From: Burkholderiales bacterium
GTDB taxonomy: Bacteria > Pseudomonadota > Gammaproteobacteria > Burkholderiales > WYBJ01
Assembly (NCBI GenBank): GCA_022841915.1
Contig: JALHQN010000007.1
Span: 124,001 to 188,000, forward strand
DNA length: 64,000 nt
Reading direction: 5' to 3'
The notes under the pieces were generated by a model. It did not search any database and was not told the origin of the DNA. It was given only the letters and a program-made list of their open reading frames with translations. Shown here one piece after another: positions 13,823 to 26,768 of this stretch; position 1 is the stretch's first letter, and each line of letters opens with the position of its first letter. Both the position numbers and the translations under genes were made by a program.

Positions 13823-13912
13823 GGAGAGATGGCAGAGCGGTTGAATGCACCGGTCTTGAAAACCGGCAGGAGTGCAAGCTCCTCGTGGGTTCGAATCCCA
13901 CTCTCTCCGCCA
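13823..13912 (+). tRNA. tRNA-Ser (anticodon UGA)
   Basis: A 90-base class II tRNA with encoded CCA. The acceptor arm GGAGAGA pairs with TCTCTCC before GCCA. The anticodon stem encloses a loop with TGA at 13857-13859. A long variable arm (AGGAG...CTCCT) follows, as expected for serine. The T-arm is GTGGGTTCGAATCCCAC. It reads UCA and, by wobble, other UCN codons. Confidence 0.97.
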
Positions 13913-16208: not shown

Positions 16209-16302
16209 GGAGAGGTGGCCGAGAGGTCGAAGGCGCTCCCCTGCTAAGGGAGTATACGGGCTAAAACCTGTATCGAGGGTTCGAATCCCTCTCTCTCCGC
16301 CA
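16209..16302 (+). tRNA. tRNA-Ser (anticodon GCU)
   Basis: A 94-base class II tRNA with encoded CCA. The acceptor arm GGAGAGG is matched by CTCTCC at the 3' end. The anticodon loop CTGCTAA carries GCT at 16233-16235. There is a long variable arm (TATACGGG...CCTGTAT), then GAGGGTTCGAATCCCTC as T-arm. It decodes AGC and AGU. Confidence 0.97.
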
Positions 16303-16820: not shown

Positions 16821-18464
16821 ATGACCGAACCTCTACATTCACTAACTATCGCGCAAGCCTCGTCGCTCCTGGAAGCGCGCGAAGTTTCGCCGGTGGAGCT
16901 CACCGAGGCCTGCCTCGCGCGGATCAGGTCGCTCGACGAGCAACTGGACGCCTTCGTCACCGTCACGGCCGAGCATGCGCTCGGGCGTGCAAGGATCGCC
17001 GAAGCCCAGATTATGCGGGGCGAATGGCGGGGGCCGCTGCACGGCATGCCGTTCGGCCTCAAGGACGTCTTCGAGACCGCCGGCATCCGTACGACGGCCC
17101 ATTCGAAGATTCTCATCGACCATGTGCCGACCCGCAGCGCCACGGCTGCTCGCAAGCTGGAAGACGCGGGTGCGGTGCTGCTGGGCAAGCTGGCCACACA
17201 CGAGTTCGCCAGCGGGGGGCCCTCTCTCGATCTGCCTTGGCCGCCGGCGCGCAATCCTTGGGATACGGCTTGTTTCACTGGCGGCTCCAGTTCCGGAGCA
17301 GGTGCAGCGGTCGCGGCGGGATTCATACCTTTTGCATTGGGCACCGATACGGGCGGATCGATTCGGATACCTGCCGCTTTATGCGGGCTGGCCGGCATCA
17401 AGCCGACCTATGGACGCGTCAGCCGCTACGGTGTCATTCCGAACTCGTACACCTTCGATCATTGCGGGCCGCTCGCCTGGACGGTCGAGGATTGCGCCAT
17501 CGTGCTGCAGGCGATCTCAGGCCACGATCCGCTGGATCCGGCGAGTGCGCGTCGTCCAGTCCCGGATTTTCGCGCTGCGTTGACGGGCGACATCCGCGGC
17601 CTGCGGATCGGTCTGCCTGCCGAATGGTGGGAGCGCGAGGCGCCTGCAGCGGCTGTCACCATGAAGGCGATGGAGGCTGCGATCGAGGTGTTTCGCGGTC
17701 TCGGGGCCCAGATCGGCGTTGTGCGCCTGCGTTCGCGCCAGCAGTACAACGACGTACGCTCGGTCATCTCCCGCAGCGAGCTGCTCAACATCTACGATGC
17801 GGATTTGCGGCAGCGTCCTAACGATTTCAGCGCCGATTTCATCGGGCGCAACCTCGCCGCCTGCATGTTCACGGCCGCGGACATCGTGCGCGCGCAGCGC
17901 GAGCGGCGTCGCATGCTCGACGAACTCAAGCCGCTCTACGAGCAGTTCGACGTTCTGCTGACCCCGGCCGGTACCCCGGCTCCGAGGCTCGATTCCCTGC
18001 TGGGCGGCGGATTCGCCGACAAATGGGAGAATCCCAACTTTTATGCCACCTTCAATCTGACGGGCGCTCCCGCCATGGTGGTCTGCAACGGTTACACGGA
18101 CACAGGCCTGCCGCTGGCGATGCAGATCGCCGGCCGGCCGTTCGACGAGGCGACCGTGCTCAGGGCCGGTCACGCGTACGAACAGGCCACGTCATGGCGC
18201 TCGCGTCGTCCTGTGCTGCTGCCGGGCGGGCACAAGTCGGCCCTTCTTCAGGCATCCCCCTTTGCGGCTGCGGGCAAAATCGAGCCCGCTGTCCAACAGT
18301 TGCTCGAGGCTTCACTCCAGCGGGCGGGATATCGGCTCACCGAAGCCCAGCTGCGCATGGTCGAGCGCGTGGCCCCGTTCGTACTCGCGGCCGCGCAGCG
18401 TCTTCCTCGCGATCAGCAGCGAGGCGATGAGCCGGCAGCGGTATTCCGGTTTCCAGATGACTGA
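16821..18464 (+). CDS. Amidase-signature hydrolase, AtzE-like, with AtzG-like C-terminal tail
   Basis: 547 residues. The amidase-signature domain (about 1-480) has the Ser-cisSer-Lys triad visible: K81 (GLKDVFE), S157 in GGSSSG and nucleophile S180 in DTGGS. The fold hydrolyses carboxylic amides. Residues 486-547 form an extra segment that ends in GDEPAAVFRFPDD. It resembles the small AtzG-type partner subunit (DUF4089) of the biuret/allophanate-related amidase AtzE, here apparently fused to the enzyme. The ATG is preceded by CAGGGAA. It heads a group with Bug receptors, MmgE/PrpD and a hydantoinase, which suggests catabolism of an amide or ureide. The fusion idea rests on my memory of the family pattern. 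Confidence 0.85.
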   Translation: MTEPLHSLTIAQASSLLEAREVSPVELTEACLARIRSLDEQLDAFVTVTAEHALGRARIAEAQIMRGEWRGPLHGMPFGLKDVFETAGIRTTAHSKILIDHVPTRSATAARKLEDAGAVLLGKLATHEFASGGPSLDLPWPPARNPWDTACFTGGSSSGAGAAVAAGFIPFALGTDTGGSIRIPAALCGLAGIKPTYGRVSRYGVIPNSYTFDHCGPLAWTVEDCAIVLQAISGHDPLDPASARRPVPDFRAALTGDIRGLRIGLPAEWWEREAPAAAVTMKAMEAAIEVFRGLGAQIGVVRLRSRQQYNDVRSVISRSELLNIYDADLRQRPNDFSADFIGRNLAACMFTAADIVRAQRERRRMLDELKPLYEQFDVLLTPAGTPAPRLDSLLGGGFADKWENPNFYATFNLTGAPAMVVCNGYTDTGLPLAMQIAGRPFDEATVLRAGHAYEQATSWRSRRPVLLPGGHKSALLQASPFAAAGKIEPAVQQLLEASLQRAGYRLTEAQLRMVERVAPFVLAAAQRLPRDQQRGDEPAAVFRFPDD

Positions 18465-18845
18465 CGACGTCCAGCATTCACGCGTGGGCCGCCTGCATCG
18501 ACCGGGGCGGGCGGGCTGCGAACCGGCTCGACGGCCGACATCTATGCCGAAATTTTCAGGTGACACGGCAGAGCCCGCTTCTAGGCGCGTTAGGTCCTCC
18601 ACCGGCGAGTCGACCTTGCGGGGCGGTGTCTGTGCGCAGTGCATGGCGTGACTTTTGCTCGACAGTAGCGCACGACATGCCCGGAAGGTGGAATCGAGCA
18701 AGTCCAGGATCCTGGGAGGTGCTCGGTGTGCGATCGATGGGGTTCCTTCGTCGTGCAGGTTTCGGGGCTGCCGGGGTCGCTGCGGATGTCTCGCAGCGCA
18801 TGCAAGAAAACCGTTTTCCATAATCGAGAGTGCCAGGGCCAAGCC
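18465..18845. other. Intergenic region between amidase and first Bug receptor
   Basis: About 380 bases with no gene I can support. The open frame running into the receptor from 18726 begins with residues unlike a signal peptide and has no ribosome-binding site, so it is treated as untranslated leader. The region probably contains the receptor's promoter, but no clear hexamer pair was found. Confidence 0.45.
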
Positions 18846-19865
18846 ATGAAGACGATACTGCAAAAGACATTGCATCGATTTGCGTGCGCATCACCTAGCG
18901 TGTCGCTGTACGGGATGGCGTTGATCGGCTTGCTCGGCGGATCGGCATCGGCTGCGGAGTGGAAACCTAGCCGCCCGATCGAGATCATCTCCGGCGTGGC
19001 GGCGGGCGGATCACTCGATCTTGCCGCGCGCGCCGCGCAACGCATCTTGCAGGAGAAGCGCAATATCGGTCAGCCCATTACGGTGATCAATCGTCCTGGC
19101 AGTGGCAGCGCGATCGCGTGGACCTATCTCAATACCCATCCGGGCAACGGGCATTATCTTTCGATGACGACCAATTCGCTCGTGATCAATCCCATCATCG
19201 GCAGCAGCTCGATTTCGTACACGGAAGTCACACCGATCGTGCATCTTTCGCGCGAGGACATCGTCTTCACGGTGCGCGCGGATTCGGCCATCAAGAGCGC
19301 GCAGGATCTCGTCGATCGGCTGAAGAAGGATCCGAGCAGTCTCTCGTTCGGCATCGCCACGAGTCTGGGCAATCCGGCGCATATTGCGATCGCCCAGGTC
19401 GCGCGTGCCGCTGGGGTCGATCTGCGCAGGGTCAAGGCGGTGGTGTTCAATGCCTCGACCCAGGCCATGGCCACCGTGCTGGGGGGCAATGTGGATGTGC
19501 TGGTCTCCAGCCCGGCCAACCCGATGCCGCACGTACAGGCGGGCAAGTTGAGAGCCCTCGCTGTGGCTTCGAACACTCGACTGCCGGGTGCCTATGCTTC
19601 CACGCCGACATGGAAGGAAGTCGGTGTGAATTCCGTATCCAGGTTTTGGCGCGGGGTGATCGGGCCCAAGGGCATGACGCCGGAGCAAGTCGCCTTCTGG
19701 GAAGCGGAGTTCGCAGCCCTCGCAGCGACCGATGAGTGGAAGAAGTATCTGGCAGACAACCTGCTGATTCCGGACTTCATGAATGCGCGCGATGCGGTCC
19801 GGTTTCTGCAGTCGGAGACGGCAGAGTATCGGACGATACTGACGGAACTCGGTCTTGCGAAGTAG
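18846..19865 (+). CDS. Bug/TctC-family periplasmic solute-binding protein (1)
   Basis: 339 residues. A signal peptide (about residues 1-34, ending SASAAE) leads to a two-lobed periplasmic receptor. The PIEIISGVAAGGSLDLAAR stretch corresponds to the family's ligand loop (usually PGGxxDxxAR), here diverged, and INRPGSGSAIAW matches the VDNRPGAGG turn. Bug receptors capture small carboxylates and similar compounds and may work with TctAB-type carriers. No transporter is encoded next to it. ATG 18846 starts a good signal peptide; upstream in-frame codons do not. This copy differs clearly from the next one, so it is probably not a recent tandem duplicate. Confidence 0.88.
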   Translation: MKTILQKTLHRFACASPSVSLYGMALIGLLGGSASAAEWKPSRPIEIISGVAAGGSLDLAARAAQRILQEKRNIGQPITVINRPGSGSAIAWTYLNTHPGNGHYLSMTTNSLVINPIIGSSSISYTEVTPIVHLSREDIVFTVRADSAIKSAQDLVDRLKKDPSSLSFGIATSLGNPAHIAIAQVARAAGVDLRRVKAVVFNASTQAMATVLGGNVDVLVSSPANPMPHVQAGKLRALAVASNTRLPGAYASTPTWKEVGVNSVSRFWRGVIGPKGMTPEQVAFWEAEFAALAATDEWKKYLADNLLIPDFMNARDAVRFLQSETAEYRTILTELGLAK

Positions 19866-20031
19866 TGCAGCATGAGCGAGCCATGGAAAGCCGCTCGGGG
19901 CGAAAAGTGACGGCCCTGCGAGGCATCCCTCAGAGTACGCGGAGGAGTTCGATTTCCTCGCCAACGAAGTACACTGTCGTGCATCGGTCGAGTGCGCGGC
20001 CATCCATTCACGGACGATATGGGGACGAGCG

Positions 20032-21033
20032 ATGATGAAGCAGGCACAGGCGGGTGGGCGCAGTTGGAAGCAACGGCTGCTGATTCTGGGGCTCACGCTC
20101 GGTGCTTGGCCGCTTCAATCCGGTGCGCAGTCTGCGAAGTGGCCTGAGAAACCTGTGCGCATCGTGACGCCGTTCGGGCCAGGCGGCGGGACGGATATCT
20201 TCGCCCGGTTGTTGGCGCAGCAGTTGACCGAAGCCTACGGGCAGCAATTCCTGGTCGAGAACCGGCCGGGAGCGGGATCGACGATAGGTACCGAGCATGT
20301 CGCGAAGTCGACGCCCGACGGCTATACGTGGCTGATGACTTCGGCGTCGTTCGCCTTCGTGCCCGGGCTGTATCCGAAGCTCAGGTACGACCCCATCAAG
20401 GATTTGATTCGTGTAAGCCAAGTCGTCACGGTGCCTCACGTCATCGCCGTCCTGCCCTCGTTCCCCGCAAAGACCCTCCAGGATTTCGTCAAACTGGCAC
20501 GCGAGCGCCCGGGCCAAGTACTCTACGCATCGGCTGGTGCTGGATCGGCGATGCACTTGGCGGGGGCGTTGTTCGGGTTGGTCACGCAGAGCAATCTCAC
20601 GCACGTGCCCTACAAGGGCGGTGGCGCGACCACGACGGCCGTGATGAGCGGCGAAGCCACGACCGCCTTCTACACCATCGAGACGGCGTTGGCGTTGATC
20701 CAGGCCAAGCGCCTGCGCGCGTTGGCTGTTTCCACGCGCGAGCGCAGTCCGGCGTTGCCCGATGTTCCGACGGCGATCGAGGCGGGGTTCAAGGATTACG
20801 ATGTCGTCGGCTGGTTCGGGCTGATGGCGCCTGCTGGAACACCGGAGGCGATCGTGAACCAACTCAGTACGGGCACAGCCAAGGCGCTCGCAAACCCGTC
20901 GGTCCGGGAGTTTTCGGCCAAACAGGGGGCAGTGCCTGTCGGCAATCGGCCGGCAGAGTTCGAGCGCTTCGTGCGCGATGAAATTCCGCGCTGGACGAAG
21001 ATCATCCAGCAGGCCGGGGTCAAGCTGGAATAG
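20032..21033 (+). CDS. Bug/TctC-family periplasmic solute-binding protein (2)
   Basis: 333 residues. A signal peptide (about 1-27, ending GAQS) is followed by WPEKPVRIVTPFGPGGGTD, the classic Bug ligand loop, and VENRPGAGSTIG. HVPYKGGGATTTAV and RERSPALPDVPTAIE are further family blocks. The start has two ATG codons in tandem (20032, 20035) after GGGGACGAG. It is 11 bases upstream of the MmgE/PrpD gene, so it is likely cotranscribed with that enzyme and may deliver its substrate. The ligand cannot be predicted from the sequence. Confidence 0.92.
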   Translation: MMKQAQAGGRSWKQRLLILGLTLGAWPLQSGAQSAKWPEKPVRIVTPFGPGGGTDIFARLLAQQLTEAYGQQFLVENRPGAGSTIGTEHVAKSTPDGYTWLMTSASFAFVPGLYPKLRYDPIKDLIRVSQVVTVPHVIAVLPSFPAKTLQDFVKLARERPGQVLYASAGAGSAMHLAGALFGLVTQSNLTHVPYKGGGATTTAVMSGEATTAFYTIETALALIQAKRLRALAVSTRERSPALPDVPTAIEAGFKDYDVVGWFGLMAPAGTPEAIVNQLSTGTAKALANPSVREFSAKQGAVPVGNRPAEFERFVRDEIPRWTKIIQQAGVKLE

Positions 21034-21044
21034 GGGGCGACATC

Positions 21045-22400
21045 ATGGGGCAGGCGATCGATCGGTTGGCCGACTTCGTCGCGTCGGCGCGATGGGAGGA
21101 CGTCCCGGATGCCGTGCGGGATCATGCGAGGCTCGTCCTGCTCGATACCGTCGGTGTCATGCTGGCGGGCAGCGAGCGTCCGGAAGTGGCGTCCCTGCGC
21201 AGGCAACTCGGTTCAACGGGTACGGGCGCTACATTGCTCGCGCGTGGCTGGGGTTCTCAGGACCCCCGAACGGCCGCCTTGCTCAACGGCATTGCCGGCC
21301 GGGCGATCGAACTGTGCGAAGGGCTGCGCCTGGTGTCCGGGCAAGCTGCGATTCAGGTGTTGCCGGGGATACTCGCCATCGCGCAAGCCAGGCACGCCTG
21401 CGGGCGCGACGTGCTCGGTGCTTTCATCGTCGGGTACGAAACGGCGGGGCGGTTATGCGCGGCATTCACGCCCCGGCCCCTTGCGCACCAGAACGGCCAG
21501 GCGTCTCTGCTCGCCGCAGCGGCGGCCGGTGCGCGCATGGCGGGCCTCGACGGGGAGGGCGTGAGTCGTGCGATGCGGATATCGACCACGCTGCTTCTGA
21601 CGCCGAGCTACACCAATGTAGTCGCAGGGGCGACCACGCTGAACGTCGCCGGTGGCATGAGCGGTTTCGTGGGCGCTCTGGCGCCGGAGCTGGCTCAGGC
21701 AGGATTCACCGCGCAACCGGGGGCCATCGAGGAAGCCCTGGGGCAGATGGTGGGCACGGGGTTCGATGCCGGGCATCTGGTCGATGATCTGGGGTCGAGT
21801 TGGGCCATCATGCGCAACTATTTCCGTCTCTATGCCTGTTGCAATCCGATCCATCCGGCGCTGGACGCTCTGCATGTGGCGCTGGCGCAGCTGCGCCCGC
21901 AGCCCGATCAGATCGAGCGCATCGACATCGCGACTTACCGCTTCGCTGCGGTGATGAAAAATCCCGAGCCGCCGAACTTCTTCGCCTCCAAGTACTCCTT
22001 GCCGCATGCCGCCGCCGTGCTCGTCGTGCGAGGCAGGCTGGGTCATGCCGGTCTGGACGACAGCGCTTTGGCCGATCCGCAAGTGGCGATGCTGCGCAGG
22101 CGCGTGCACATCGAGGAAGATCCCGCCATGAGCGAGCGTGCGCCGACATGGCGGCCGGCGCGCGTGACCGTCGTGCTCAAGGACGGCCGCAGCGCAACGC
22201 ACGCGGTCGAGAGCCATCGCGGCGACTTCAACCAGCCCTTCGAGCGCTCGGAGATCTTGGCCAAGTTTCGCGAACTCGCGGGCCATGTGCTGACTGCCGA
22301 GGGCGTGCAGCAGGCCGAGTCGATGCTGCTCGCTCTGGATACGATCGGCGATTTCGATCAGGCGATCGGCTCATTGCGGCACCATGTACTGTCCGCCTGA
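21045..22400 (+). CDS. MmgE/PrpD family protein
   Basis: 451 residues. The MmgE/PrpD fold includes 2-methylcitrate dehydratase, cis-aconitate decarboxylase and iminodisuccinate epimerase. Seen: the N-terminal helical domain with HARLVLLDTVGVMLAGS (residues about 26-42), the GRAIELCEGLRL segment where many members have a DDT motif, and the C-terminal lid domain with YACCNPIHPALDAL. Members in catabolic islands often act as lyases or epimerases on dicarboxylates. It lies between a Bug receptor and a hydantoinase, whose start is 55 bases after this stop, so an organic-acid or imide substrate is plausible. The reaction is not assignable. Confidence 0.88.
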   Translation: MGQAIDRLADFVASARWEDVPDAVRDHARLVLLDTVGVMLAGSERPEVASLRRQLGSTGTGATLLARGWGSQDPRTAALLNGIAGRAIELCEGLRLVSGQAAIQVLPGILAIAQARHACGRDVLGAFIVGYETAGRLCAAFTPRPLAHQNGQASLLAAAAAGARMAGLDGEGVSRAMRISTTLLLTPSYTNVVAGATTLNVAGGMSGFVGALAPELAQAGFTAQPGAIEEALGQMVGTGFDAGHLVDDLGSSWAIMRNYFRLYACCNPIHPALDALHVALAQLRPQPDQIERIDIATYRFAAVMKNPEPPNFFASKYSLPHAAAVLVVRGRLGHAGLDDSALADPQVAMLRRRVHIEEDPAMSERAPTWRPARVTVVLKDGRSATHAVESHRGDFNQPFERSEILAKFRELAGHVLTAEGVQQAESMLLALDTIGDFDQAIGSLRHHVLSA

Positions 22401-22443
22401 GGCGGACTTGAAAACCGTCGGTGAAACGAGCGTTGAACGCATG

Positions 22444-22452
22444 AAGGAGGGG
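22444..22452 (+). promoter_or_regulatory. Strong ribosome-binding site deciding the hydantoinase start
   Basis: AAGGAGGGG ends 3 bases before ATG 22456, the start consistent with the family. It argues against the upstream in-frame ATG codons at 22384 and 22441. Confidence 0.7.
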
Positions 22453-22455
22453 ACG

Positions 22456-23886
22456 ATGTTCGATTTGGTGATTCGGGGCGATCGGGTCGTGACACCCAAC
22501 GGCGCTGGGGCATACGACGTAGCTATCCAGGCCGACAATATTGCGGCCGTGGCCGCTGCCGGAACGTTCACCGAGCAGCATGCGGCCCGAATCATCGATG
22601 CGACGGGCAAGATCGTGATGCCGGGCGGCATCGATCCGCACGTGCATTGCAAATGGTATTCGCCGCAGCCCGATGGCTCGGTGATCTACACCGATCCGCC
22701 GTCGGTCGTCAGCCGGGCTGCGCTCTATGGCGGGACGACGACGCTGATCGACTTCGCTCGCTGGACGCATGGCAGCACGATCCAGGAGGCCATCGACAAG
22801 CGACACGAAGACTGGCGCGGCCAGTGCTATTGCGACTACAGCTATCACGTCATGGTCGAAGGCGCATTGCCCACGGAGATCTTCGAGCAACTGGGCCAGG
22901 CGGTCCGCGATGGCTATCCGACGGTCAAGATCTTCACCACCGACATCACACCCAGTCGGCGCGGGCGCATGGTGGACTTCGGGGACATCTGGGAGGTGTT
23001 CCAGGTGGTCGCGCGCGAACGCGGCCTGTGCGTGATGCACGGCGAGGATAACGACATCGTGATGCACATGTACGAGAAGCTGATTCGCGAAGGTCGGGTC
23101 GGCTTCGAGCACATGGCCGAGGTGCACAACGCGATGTCCGAGGACATGTCTTTTCGGCGCGTTCTGGCGCTGGCGCAGAACGTTCCCGGCATCGCGTTGT
23201 ATTTCATGCATGTGAGCGCGGCCAACGGGGTGCAGGCGGTGCGCGAGGCTCGAGAACGCGGGCTTCCGGTCTACGCCGAGACGCTGCATCAGTACCTGAT
23301 GTACACCGCCGAGGACTACAAGCGGCCCAACGGCCAGATGTATCACACCTATCCGTCGCTCAAATCCCAGGCCGACCAGAACGAACTGTGGGCCGGGACG
23401 CTCGACGGCACCGTCCATACCGTGGCGACCGACGAGGTCTGCTGCTCGCTCAACGTCAAGACCATCGGCAAGCGGATCGACGACACGACGGGCGGCAACG
23501 TCGGCGTCGAGCCGCGTCTCGCCATCATGTATACGGAGATGGTGGGGCGGCGCGGCTACTCGCTCGAGAAGTTCGTCGACCTCGTCTCGAGCAATGCGGC
23601 AAAGATCATGGGACTCTATCCTCGCAAGGGCGCCCTGGTGCCGGGCGCGGACGCAGATATCGCGGTGCTCGATCCCGCCAAGCGCACCATCGTGCGCAAG
23701 GAGATGCTGCACGAACAGGATTATTCGCCCTGGGAAGGCCACGAGGTGTACGTGTGGCCGTCGCTCACCGTGCTGCGCGGAAAGGTGGTGATGGAAGAGG
23801 GCGTGCTGCATGCGACGCCCAGCGACGGCACGTACCTGTTGCGCCGGATCTCCGACGAGATCCTGGCCGGCGCCTGTCGCCTCTAG
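22456..23886 (+). CDS. Hydantoinase/dihydropyrimidinase-family cyclic amidohydrolase
   Basis: 476 residues, a TIM-barrel amidohydrolase that opens cyclic amides such as hydantoins, dihydropyrimidines or related imides. Metal ligands: HVHCKW early (the HxH), the lysine of YPTVKIFTTD (expected to be carboxylated), the histidine of CVMHGED and the histidine of YFMHVSAAN. The usual late motif TDHCPF is replaced by ATDEVCCSLN: the aspartate stays, but the next residues are unlike classical enzymes, so specificity is probably different. A small unknown gene follows after 8 bases and then cobW. A CobW metallochaperone nearby is in keeping with a metal-dependent hydrolase. Confidence 0.9.
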   Translation: MFDLVIRGDRVVTPNGAGAYDVAIQADNIAAVAAAGTFTEQHAARIIDATGKIVMPGGIDPHVHCKWYSPQPDGSVIYTDPPSVVSRAALYGGTTTLIDFARWTHGSTIQEAIDKRHEDWRGQCYCDYSYHVMVEGALPTEIFEQLGQAVRDGYPTVKIFTTDITPSRRGRMVDFGDIWEVFQVVARERGLCVMHGEDNDIVMHMYEKLIREGRVGFEHMAEVHNAMSEDMSFRRVLALAQNVPGIALYFMHVSAANGVQAVREARERGLPVYAETLHQYLMYTAEDYKRPNGQMYHTYPSLKSQADQNELWAGTLDGTVHTVATDEVCCSLNVKTIGKRIDDTTGGNVGVEPRLAIMYTEMVGRRGYSLEKFVDLVSSNAAKIMGLYPRKGALVPGADADIAVLDPAKRTIVRKEMLHEQDYSPWEGHEVYVWPSLTVLRGKVVMEEGVLHATPSDGTYLLRRISDEILAGACRL

Positions 23887-23894
23887 CATTCTCG

Positions 23895-24245
23895 ATGATC
23901 GTCTCCGGATACCCGATGGCGGACACCGGGCCCAAAGAGGATCGGCTGCGAGCGTTCTTCGTGCAAACGCTCGCGCTGTGGCAGGTCGAGGCGACGGTCG
24001 AGGCGGCCGAGTTCCCGCAGATCGCGGTCATTCGCAGATCCGACGGCACGCGTATCACCATCGGGCAGGCAGCGAACGATACGCCGTTTCGCTGGGAGGT
24101 CGCGACCGTGCGGTCATCGGACGGCGTGGCCGCTGCGCCGCGCGTGCTGCCGTGCGGGTCGCTGGTCGGCGTGCTCGGGGCGCTGCGCCGCTCGTTCGGT
24201 GTCGAGCGGGGACGACCGATTCGAGTGGTATCGGCGCCCTCGTGA
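23895..24245 (+). CDS. Small conserved-looking protein of unknown function
   Basis: 116 residues beginning MIVSGYPMADTG (an alternative start is M8 at 23916). No signal peptide and no membrane segment. It is a compact alpha/beta-looking protein with VEAAEFPQIAVIRRSDGTRI in the middle, whose strands suggest a small substrate- or cofactor-binding fold. It starts 8 bases after the hydantoinase stop, and its own stop overlaps the GTG of cobW by four bases. It is therefore very likely translated as part of this operon. I do not recognise the family. A role as an accessory subunit of the hydantoinase is only a guess from position. Confidence 0.65.
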   Translation: MIVSGYPMADTGPKEDRLRAFFVQTLALWQVEATVEAAEFPQIAVIRRSDGTRITIGQAANDTPFRWEVATVRSSDGVAAAPRVLPCGSLVGVLGALRRSFGVERGRPIRVVSAPS

Positions 24246-25267
24246 TTCCCGTCAACGTGCTCACGGGTTTTCTCGGCAGCGGCAAGACCACGCTGCTCAA
24301 CGCGCTGCTGCGGCATCCGCAGATGCGGCGCACCGCCGTGATCGTCAACGAGTTCGGCGAAATCGCCATCGATCACGATCTGATCGAAACGAGCGACGAG
24401 AGCTTCGTCCAGCTCTCCAACGGCTGTCTGTGCTGCCAGGTGCGCAGCGACCTGGTGCTCACGCTGAGCGAACTGGCCGCGGCGCGCGCGGCCGGCAGCC
24501 TGCCTGCATTCGAGCGGGTCGTCATCGAAACTTCGGGATTGGCCGATCCGGCGCCGATTCTCCACGCCTTGATGACCGACGCATCGGTTCGCGAGCGCTA
24601 CGTGCTGGCCGGTGTCGTCACCACGGTCGACGCGGTTGTGGGCATGCGTTCCTTGGCGAACTACGTGGAGTGTGCGAGGCAGATCGCGCTTGCCGATCGC
24701 GTCGTGCTGACCAAGACGGATGTGCCGGAGGCCTGCCCGGAATCGCTCGAGGCACGCCTGCGCGATATTCATGGCGACTGTCCCACGCTGCGCGCCGTAC
24801 GGGGGCAGATCGAGCCGGACGTCTTGTTCCCAGTCGATGTCGAGACCCGCATGCCGGCCTTCCTTGCGACTGCGGCGCCGCTGCGCGGGCTGGCGACGTA
24901 TCGCGTGGATGCCGCCTCCCACGCCCATAGCACCGGCATGACGAGCGTTTCGATTGTCCGCGACGAACCCGTGCATGCGGCTACACTTGCGCTGTTCGTG
25001 TCAGCGCTGGCGGAGAACTGCGGCGACGATCTGGTGCGGGTCAAGGGCATCGTGAGCGTCGTCGAGGATCCTGAACGCCCGGCGGTGATTCACGGTGTGC
25101 AGCACGTCTATGACGCCGCGCAGTGGATGGCGCGGTGGCCCTCGGCGGATCGGCGCACGCGCCTCGTGTTCATCGGTCGGCGCCTGAACGCTCAGTGGCT
25201 CGGAATGCTGCTCGACCTGCTCGACGAGGAAGTCGCCGACCAAGCGGCGAAGATCCGCCGGGCTTAG
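24242..25267 (+). CDS. CobW/COG0523-family GTPase (metallochaperone-like)
   Basis: 341 residues starting at GTG 24242 with VIPVNVLTGFLGSGKTT, so the Walker A loop is at residues 9-17. The metal-binding CLCC motif (NGCLCCQVRSDL) and ETSGLADPAP (switch region) are diagnostic of COG0523 G3E GTPases. The CobW C-terminal domain is at about residues 235-335. These proteins deliver zinc, cobalt or other metals to client enzymes using GTP. The GTGA overlap with the small gene and closeness to the hydantoinase suggest that enzyme as client; this is inference. It could equally serve another enzyme under metal limitation. Confidence 0.92.
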   Translation: MIPVNVLTGFLGSGKTTLLNALLRHPQMRRTAVIVNEFGEIAIDHDLIETSDESFVQLSNGCLCCQVRSDLVLTLSELAAARAAGSLPAFERVVIETSGLADPAPILHALMTDASVRERYVLAGVVTTVDAVVGMRSLANYVECARQIALADRVVLTKTDVPEACPESLEARLRDIHGDCPTLRAVRGQIEPDVLFPVDVETRMPAFLATAAPLRGLATYRVDAASHAHSTGMTSVSIVRDEPVHAATLALFVSALAENCGDDLVRVKGIVSVVEDPERPAVIHGVQHVYDAAQWMARWPSADRRTRLVFIGRRLNAQWLGMLLDLLDEEVADQAAKIRRA

Positions 25268-25319
25268 CACTGCAGACCTGCGCACGCTTCTTGCTGAAGT
25301 GCCTACAGGGAGTATCGAT

Positions 25320-26768
25320 ATGCACTTGGATCCGTCCACCTACCCGCGGGGAGCCGCTTTCGACGAGTTGATCGATGCATCCGGTGCGCCCAGGCCGGCT
25401 GCCCGAGAACTCTTCAATCATCTGTCCAAGCTCGACAAGGTCGCATTGCGCGAGCGTCGTGCGACGGTGGATGCGGCCATCATGACCATGGGCATCACCT
25501 TCACGATCTACAGCGAAGGCGAGAACATCGATCGCGCGTGGCCGTTCGACATCATTCCGCGCATCATGGCGCGCGACGAGTGGCGGCGCATCGAGGCGGG
25601 CCTCAAGCAGCGGTTGTCCGCGCTCAACTGCTTCATCAACGACATCTACAACGAACAGCGCATCGTCAAGGATGGTGTGTTTCCGCAGGAGGTGCTGGCC
25701 GGATCGCGCAACTTCCGAGTGCAGTGCGTGGGGCATGCGCCCCAGTTCGGGGTGTGGGCACACGTTTGCGGCACTGATTTGGTGCGAGATCGCGATGGAA
25801 CGGTCTACGTCCTGGAGGACAACCTGCGCGTGCCCTCCGGTGTCTCGTACATGCTGGAAAACAGGATGCTGATGAAGCGCCTGTTCCCGGAAATGTTCCA
25901 GGCTTGCGACATCCTGCCCGTCGACGACTACACGACGCGCCTCTACGAGACGCTTGCAGCCTTGTCGCCCCGCCCCTCGGAGCGCCCGGTAATCGCAGTC
26001 CTCACGCCGGGGATCTACAACTCGGCCTATTTCGAGCACAGCTACCTCGCCCAGCAGATGGGGGCCATCCTGGTGGAAGGCTCCGATCTCGTGGTCGGTG
26101 ACAACGATGTCGTGTACATGAAGACGATCGACGGTCTGCGGCGCGTCGATGTCATCTACCGCCGCATCGACGACGAGTTCATCGATCCGGAAGCCTTCCG
26201 TAAAGACTCCGTGCTGGGCGTGCCGGGTCTGATGAGAGCGTGGCGACGAGGCACCATCGGGATTGCGAATGCGCCCGGAGCCGGTGTGGCCGACGACAAG
26301 GTGGTCTACGCGTACGTGCCGCAATTCATCAAGTACTATCTCGCGGAAGAGGCCATCTTGCCCAATGTGCCGAGTTACTTGTGCATGCACGACGACGAAC
26401 GGGACTACGTGCTGGCCAATCTCGATAAGCTGGTGGTCAAGCCAGCCAACGAGTCGGGGGGCTACGGCATGATGATCGGGCCGCGCGCCACGGCGTCGGA
26501 ACGCGAGGAGTGCGCGAGCCGGATCAAGGCCGATCCGCGCAATTACATGGCCCAGCCCACGCTGCTGCTTTCGACCGCGCCGACCCTGATCGGCGATGAT
26601 CTTGCGCCTCGGCATCTGGACTTGCGCCCGTTCGTGCTGCAATCGGATAGCCTATATGCGACCACCGGCGGTCTGACGCGCGTGGCGATGCGCGAGAACT
26701 CGCTGGTCGTCAACTCCTCTCAGGGCGGCGGGAGCAAGGACACCTGGATCGTGGACGTGAGAAACTAG
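25320..26768 (+). CDS. Circularly permuted ATP-grasp protein (DUF404/DUF407 type)
   Basis: 482 residues. Recognised by [19 protein letters not shown] near the N-terminus and [19 protein letters not shown]. The strongly conserved block [20 protein letters not shown] follows, and a C-terminal stretch has [17 protein letters not shown] and QGGGSKDTW. This is the circularly permuted ATP-grasp of predicted peptide-ligase systems, thought to form amide bonds between an amino acid and an acceptor. ATG 25320 has AGGGAG upstream. The alpha-E gene starts 3 bases after its stop. The real substrate is unknown for the family. Confidence 0.93.

Follow-up and report, generated by a model that had tools for sequence, protein, structure and literature searches.

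Why should a hydantoinase-like enzyme be encoded side by side with a GTPase of the CobW type and a small protein of an unnamed family? The question is raised by a 64,000-nucleotide stretch of DNA from a Burkholderiales bacterium (GTDB lineage WYBJ01; assembly GCA_022841915.1, contig JALHQN010000007.1, positions 124,001 to 188,000 of the forward strand), the whole of which we call the window and number from its first letter. Seven genes lie collinear on its plus strand between 16821 and 25267, as a preliminary description had correctly stated in proposing a catabolic island for a cyclic amide or ureide. That description passed over the strongest point of the locus, namely that the last three genes, at 22456-25267, are a core module: a hydantoinase-like cyclic amidohydrolase of 476 amino acids (22456..23886; PF01979/PF07969), a small protein of 116 amino acids without a domain match (23895..24245) and a G3E-family GTPase of the COG0523/CobW type (24242..25267; PF02492 at 156 bits, PF07683 at 71.5 bits). 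We propose, at a probability of roughly 0.58, that this module comprises a cyclic amidohydrolase, the GTPase dedicated to loading it and a small adaptor.

Eight bases separate the stop of the enzyme gene (23886) from the ATG of the small-protein gene (23895), whose own stop (24245) overlaps the GTG start of the GTPase gene (24242) by the four bases GTGA; the overlap of the last genes had been noted before. An open reading frame (ORF) beginning at 23810 is a mere 5' extension of the GTPase frame. A longer enzyme ORF of 500 amino acids opens at 22384, within the preceding MmgE/PrpD gene. Since the match starts at residue 19 or later of this ORF in 65 of 80 relatives, the ATG at 22456 is the likelier start, and a Shine-Dalgarno-like aaggagggg stands immediately 5' of it.

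How regularly the three genes keep company was judged from loci for which the enzyme was the sole query. A species-level collection of genomes yielded 222 relatives, of which the 80 best were taken, and their neighbourhoods were defined by codon-scored gene calling and clustering and then by profile searches. Adjacency of the small protein required a score of at least 35 bits and a position no more than 700 bases past the enzyme or 1.7 kb before it, and that of CobW a score of at least 100 bits and a position no more than 1 kb past or 300 bases before; small-protein matches of 12-16 bits upstream of CobW in three loci (L059, L060, L063) were left out of the counts. The order enzyme-small protein-CobW was found in 36 loci and small protein-CobW-enzyme in 4, while 25 have enzyme-small protein, 5 have CobW-enzyme and 10 have neither partner adjacent. 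At least one partner therefore adjoins the enzyme in 70 of the 80 loci, in two gene orders, and in 65 the small protein lies beside the enzyme or beside that enzyme's CobW. The called genes run into each other, usually by 4 bases, in 24 of 43 pairs of enzyme and small protein and in 14 of 27 pairs of small protein and CobW. One genome, that of Roseomonas populi CN29 (L054), has the small protein as the N-terminal part of the CobW protein, in a single frame of 467 amino acids.

The loci without an adjacent partner are of several kinds. Two (L017, L032) stop at contig ends, a third (L050) has the small protein 3.7 kb and CobW 7.5 kb further on, and two from Caldovatus (L044, L086) belong to genomes in which the small protein and CobW lie side by side elsewhere; the stretch searched contains neither gene in the other five (L020, L038, L042, L043, L049). 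Of the separate pairs, one from Caldovatus (L096) is followed by an asparaginase-like gene and another (L097) by a short frame with a similar start that runs into masked sequence. A genome-wide search of 17 chosen locus genomes gave a single small-protein match in each, along with one or more CobWs (expectation value, E, at most 1e-50); in 11 of these genomes a partner that does not adjoin the enzyme is present elsewhere. That the trio travels together in many bacteria suggests a dedicated assembly system, for a type of enzyme that is not known to require any.

The same association was seen across 150 sampled genomes of the family to which Roseomonas populi CN29 belongs. Of these, 37 have the small protein, 44 have the enzyme (in one case at no more than 38% identity) and 36 have both (Fisher p ~1e-25, descent ignored). 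The sole genome with the small protein but without the enzyme (G888) carries it 442 bases from a contig end. In 33 of the 37 genomes the small protein lies at most 200 bases from the enzyme on the same contig and strand, and in one at 893 bases; this analysis used all small-protein rows but one (37 of 38, the exception being a second, partial row from G798), all 47 enzyme rows and 36 CobW rows, those scoring at least 392 bits plus six near an enzyme. A CobW with a score of 400 bits or more against the module profile was present in 29 of the 37 genomes with the small protein and in none of the other 113, at a cut-off picked after the scores had been seen and with at most 14 candidates scored per genome.

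The module is spread over beta- and alphaproteobacteria. By their titles, the 80 loci are beta-proteobacterial (84 to ~68% identity to the enzyme) and alphaproteobacterial (72 to 63%; Acetobacteraceae, Rhodospirillales and some Hyphomicrobiales), with few titled otherwise, and many are metagenome bins. The enzyme is present in all four genomes searched from the window's genus, the other three copies being 83-84% identical, and two of those genomes carry a second copy at 57%. One such enzyme-like gene of 57% identity (L007, 13801-18848) comes after an NMT1-type ABC transporter and an asparaginase gene, and neither a small protein nor CobW is its direct neighbour. Within the class, the enzyme was found (E at most 1e-115) in 1 of 369 genomes, the window's own, and within the phylum the small protein in 2 of 398, the own genome and one weak match (G165; E 7.5e-4, C-terminal part only, no CobW in the 3.1 kb searched) that we treat as chance. 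Relatives of the enzyme occur in 31 plasmid records (E at most 1e-60); none reaches 60% identity, and the 20 that were listed stay under 46%. The small protein had no match among the plasmids searched, and the enzyme relative of an Arthrobacter plasmid (45%) has no small protein or CobW near by. So patchy a spread is what might be expected if the three genes were a horizontally transferred block without functional coupling, but overlapping genes, two gene orders and split loci that keep all parts make this highly improbable.

What kind of enzyme, then, is at the centre of the module? Its predicted metal ligands (H86, H88, K182, H219, H276 and D350, numbered in the 500-residue ORF) are invariant in all 82 aligned members of the family, and these four histidines, one lysine and one aspartate align with the metal ligands of the cyclic amidohydrolases. 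D-hydantoinase/dihydropyrimidinase (PDB 1yny, 4kir) has in common with the enzyme the superfamily and all six ligands, and annotated hydA-type plasmid proteins align to it at ~33-36% identity. The likeness does not extend to the Tyr, SPP and PNG positions, the substrate-touching motifs in the structures of hydantoinases and dihydropyrimidinases. In a comparison with four hydantoinase-type plasmid proteins (three annotated hydA, one unannotated) and E. coli HyuA, the Tyr following the lysine is replaced by D in 79 of the 82 members, and the enzyme has YPSLK in place of SPP, GGNxGVEPR in place of PNGxPGVExR and TDExCC in place of SDHCPF, with the Cys after the metal Asp invariant. It also falls below the curated hydantoinase/dihydropyrimidinase cut-offs (TIGR02033, 320 vs 393 bits; NF009941, 346 vs 647). 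In an unrooted tree, the family and its sisters split with support 1.0 from six outgroups (the four plasmid proteins, E. coli HyuA and E. coli AllB). Because the substrate motifs are replaced and the family splits from the outgroups, the enzyme is, judged by sequence, a separate subfamily that should not be called a hydantoinase; the labels 'hydantoinase' and 'AtzE' given in the preliminary description are sound at the level of the superfamily but fail at that of the named family, where curated cut-offs are missed. In Skermanella rosea (L114, 2992-7142) an annotated hydA stands with SDR, asparaginase and polysaccharide-deacetylase genes, and asparaginase and deacetylase genes flank the module in another locus (L039).

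The GTPase passes the tests for COG0523/G3E proteins: PF02492 and PF07683 are above cut-off and the GCxCC motif is present, in the form GCLCC in 46 of 48 module CobWs. Its G domain, CobW_C domain and GCxCC motif are those of YjiA (PDB 1nij, 4ixm), CobW, ZigA/ZagA and Nha3, whereas it stays below the NCBIfam equivalog cut-offs for CobW (147.7 vs 332.1), ZigA (120 vs 600) and the YjiA-type PRK11537 (202.8 vs 361). In a tree of 67 CobW-type proteins, 42 module CobWs and 12 separate ones from the locus genomes form one clade (0.918), distinct from 13 other COG0523 proteins that include four paralogues from the own genome and E. coli YjiA. The tree holds 42 of the 48 module CobWs (those above 280 amino acids) and 25 others (at least 250 aligned residues, E at most 1e-20), with no row from E. 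coli YeiR (L119) or from one further stretch (L124). Unlike YjiA and the own-genome paralogues, the module GTPase is associated with a client of the hydantoinase-like kind and with a small partner. Stand-alone CobWs of the module clade lie near two polysaccharide-deacetylase-like genes (L101, 6146-9394; L102, 5366-8703), so this GTPase type may have further clients.

The small protein belongs to a family of which none of 47 members matches Pfam or NCBIfam (E at most 0.01). Across these members W67 is invariant, and W29, R66, S89, L94 and R98 are kept in at least 90%. AlphaFold2 predicts with confidence a fold of one helix, five strands and a second helix (mean predicted local distance difference test score 88.1), for which Foldseek returned no match at E at most 0.001, and a sequence search of the PDB gave nothing below E 1. 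Structural alignments are middling: the order of elements resembles that of frataxin CyaY, with Z of 6.1-6.2, a root-mean-square deviation of 3.6-4.3 and 79-83 aligned residues, though unrelated rows reach Z 8.5; judged by the model, none of the solved structures appears to be a clear relative. Members average about one Cys and one His, a composition that makes a metal-carrying role look unlikely. A role as adaptor or subunit is more likely, and the small protein is probably an adaptor.

Urease, itself an amidohydrolase, offers a parallel for what such a set of genes may do. As the available part of PMC6332059 describes it, a carbamylated lysine in urease carries two nickel ions, and activation involves CO2 and the hydrolysis of GTP together with UreD, UreF, UreG and UreE; four His, one Asp and a carbamylated Lys are likewise given for nearly all cyclic amidohydrolases in the accessible text of PMC9863593. 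The COG0523 proteins are described as G3E GTPases tied to metal handling and related to UreG and HypB, their best-characterised member being the nitrile hydratase activator Nha3 (PMC2770081 and PMC9164220, in the sections available). Both systems resemble the module: urease maturation sets a G3E GTPase and non-GTPase accessory proteins beside a lysine-bridged two-metal amidohydrolase, and Nha3 is, in those same sections, a COG0523 GTPase encoded with the single enzyme that it matures. They also differ from it, in that the client of the module is a single-chain hydantoinase-like enzyme served by one accessory protein and a COG0523 GTPase rather than UreG, and in that the client of Nha3 is an iron-type nitrile hydratase and not an amidohydrolase. 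Because the module holds the same ingredients as the urease system, we infer a GTP-driven loading of metal. The enzyme would have the metal site of a hydantoinase, two metal ions bridged by a carbamylated lysine; the dedicated GTPase would load the metal in a GTP-driven step and perhaps assist the carbamylation of the lysine, and the small adaptor would connect the client enzyme to the GTPase. It is conceivable, although we would put the odds below even, that the module is a second independent case, after urease, of G3E GTPase-dependent assembly of a lysine-carbamylated two-metal amidohydrolase, in which the COG0523 GTPase would bring the metal, and perhaps CO2 for the lysine, to a new hydantoinase-like subfamily by way of a new adaptor family.

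Several observations weigh against the proposed assembly module. Within the set distances, CobW is missing from 28 of the 73 loci that could be evaluated, and the small protein from 13 of 78. The AlphaFold2 model of the fused protein of Roseomonas populi CN29 is too weak in the small domain for docking to be seen. Among the 150 genomes, the CobW contrast weakens at E at most 1e-100 to 34 of 37 against 35 of 113; 8 of the 37 small-protein genomes lack a CobW of at least 400 bits, three (G838, G873, G892) have none at E at most 1e-100 despite the small protein, and 8 of the 44 enzyme genomes have no small-protein match. Four of these eight (G792, G793, G875, G900) carry a sister enzyme of 55-56% identity with a CobW 41-88 bases away, and one (G845) has only the 38% relative; the remaining three (G770, G840, G902) have an enzyme of 60-67% identity yet no small protein. 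In the CobW tree, the proteins encoded next to the sister enzyme (L108, L109) are not part of the module clade, and the link between enzyme and CobW therefore either predates the small protein or arose repeatedly; in the first of these loci (L108, 3268-8720) the sister enzyme and CobW stand between two amidase genes, with no small protein. Finally, no CobW or small-protein match was found in six hydantoinase/allantoinase loci used as a yardstick (L112-L115 with 3 kb flanks, and the E. coli HyuA and AllB stretches), so the enzyme fold needs no GTPase in general.

Members of COG0523 also serve zinc homeostasis, according to the available sections of PMC2770081 and PMC9164220, and the GTPase might accordingly act in a metal-sparing or general zinc response, co-regulated beside a zinc enzyme but taking no direct part in its maturation, with the small protein as enzyme subunit or regulator. 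The 25 of 80 loci in which the small protein adjoins the enzyme without CobW would suit this alternative. We nevertheless think it improbable, since the module CobW belongs to a clade apart from the four COG0523 proteins of its own genome included in the tree, and since changed gene orders and the fusion of small protein to CobW favour direct partnership.

It remains to place the other four genes of the proposed island. They might belong to a catabolic operon in which amidase, Bug receptors, MmgE/PrpD enzyme and hydantoinase together degrade a hydantoin, imide or ureide, with CobW as a bystander. The collinearity of all genes speaks for this, as does the retention of Bug, MmgE/PrpD and enzyme genes in 17 loci and the presence of amidase-cluster and asparaginase genes in 11 and 9 of the 80. 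CobW can hardly be a bystander, however, because the small protein (65 of 80 loci) and CobW (45 of 80) lie near the enzyme oftener than MmgE/PrpD does (18 of 80). The replaced substrate motifs argue against such an operon too, as does the want of any counterpart of the amidase and Bug1 at the matching place in three genomes of the same genus, and we consider it an unlikely explanation.

The amidase-signature protein (16821..18464, 547 amino acids; PF01425 at 337.8 bits) is AtzE-like but stays below the curated AtzE cut-offs (TIGR02715, 300.7 vs 425.75 bits; NF006631, 307 vs 461), and its own genome encodes 15 amidases similar to it (E at most 1e-60). Its best matches in the three same-genus genomes reach 51-56% identity, against 83-84% for the enzyme, and lie on contigs other than the enzyme's; copies of 46-47% on the enzyme's contig are ~8.5 kb (G003) and 25 kb (G001) away. 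For the first Bug-type receptor (Bug1, 18846..19865; PF03401 at 120.3 bits), whose longest ORF opens at GTG 18726 although ATG 18846 is likelier, the best tblastn matches in relatives reach only ~23-30% identity. Synteny and the paralogue search thus rule out both genes as members of the conserved unit, and the single island does not survive as proposed. The amidase has a C-terminal extension of ~80 residues past the amidase domain (residues ~470-547; 18230-18464) without a Pfam match, which may resemble an AtzG-like small subunit. Two tRNA-Ser genes, gct at 16209-16302 and tga at 13823-13912, lie upstream; the amidase starts ~520 bases past the former, which could be the insertion point for the non-conserved amidase and Bug1. 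Just 3' of CobW, and on its strand, a circularly permuted ATP-grasp gene (25299-26768) seems to open a different cluster; we rejected it as a module member, none being seen 3' of CobW in 16 loci inspected.

The second Bug-type receptor (Bug2, 20032..21033) and the MmgE/PrpD-family enzyme (21045..22400) fare differently and can be regarded as accessories to the module in beta-proteobacteria. The gaps between Bug2 and MmgE/PrpD (11 bases, from the stop at 21033 to the ATG at 21045) and between MmgE/PrpD and the hydantoinase-like enzyme (55 bases, from the stop at 22400 to the ATG at 22456) measure as claimed. Bug2 passes the PF03401 cut-off for Bug/TctC receptors (250.7 bits), as Bug1 also does. 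The MmgE/PrpD protein passes its family cut-offs (PF03972 at 126.9 and PF19305 at 122.8 bits vs 32.1 each) but misses those of 2-methylcitrate dehydratase PrpD (NF042438, NF006943, TIGR02330), with at most 32.6 bits, and its closest solved structures by sequence are IRG1/cis-aconitate decarboxylase and IDS epimerase. An MmgE/PrpD gene stands directly upstream of the enzyme in the 18 loci, all with beta-proteobacterial titles, and in 17 a Bug gene precedes it; the Bug genes preceding MmgE/PrpD in relatives are 64-74% identical to Bug2. The three same-genus genomes keep MmgE/PrpD, enzyme, small protein and CobW together. The check on related genomes suggested in the preliminary description thus finds the order from Bug2 to CobW again, without the amidase and Bug1 at that place in the same-genus genomes. 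The return of these five genes, Bug2 to CobW, in unchanged order makes a shared function likely, so that the earlier idea of a shared pathway is supported for them and not supported for the amidase.

On what substrate the module acts can be narrowed to a best guess. A cyclic amide or imide remains the best candidate class, as first suggested; the enzyme would open a cyclic amide or imide that is probably neither a hydantoin nor a dihydropyrimidine. With a Bug receptor and MmgE/PrpD attached in the window's beta-proteobacterial lineage, the substrate would probably enter the cell as a carboxylic acid or be converted to one. The neighbour genes fit ring opening with an amide or carboxylate as the product: the 80 loci include asparaginase-family genes in 9, AtzE-like amidases in 11, ornithine cyclodeaminase-like genes in 5 and FAD-dependent DAO-family oxidoreductases in 10. 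Amidase-cluster genes near the enzyme number 12 in 1.22 Mb against ~3 expected, an excess of about fourfold by a rough yardstick that takes the own-genome density (15 per 6.2 Mb) and sets side by side two counts with different cut-offs. Given the amidase and asparaginase genes near the enzyme in other lineages, deamidation is plausible in general as a later step.

The trio is not described in the literature searched, where an earlier mention of the gene neighbourhood is possible, the survey of COG0523 being incomplete; in the available part of the one publication that has both, hydantoinase and CobW are unrelated genes of one fosmid. For many COG0523 GTPases the client proteins are unknown, in the accessible sections of PMC9164220. 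The trio names a concrete COG0523 client and a new accessory protein, and it raises the question why GTP-driven assembly should serve an enzyme of the hydantoinase type, whose relatives are encoded without these partners in the loci examined. It also singles out a set of proteins to which general models would give the name hydantoinase or dihydropyrimidinase but whose substrates are probably others.

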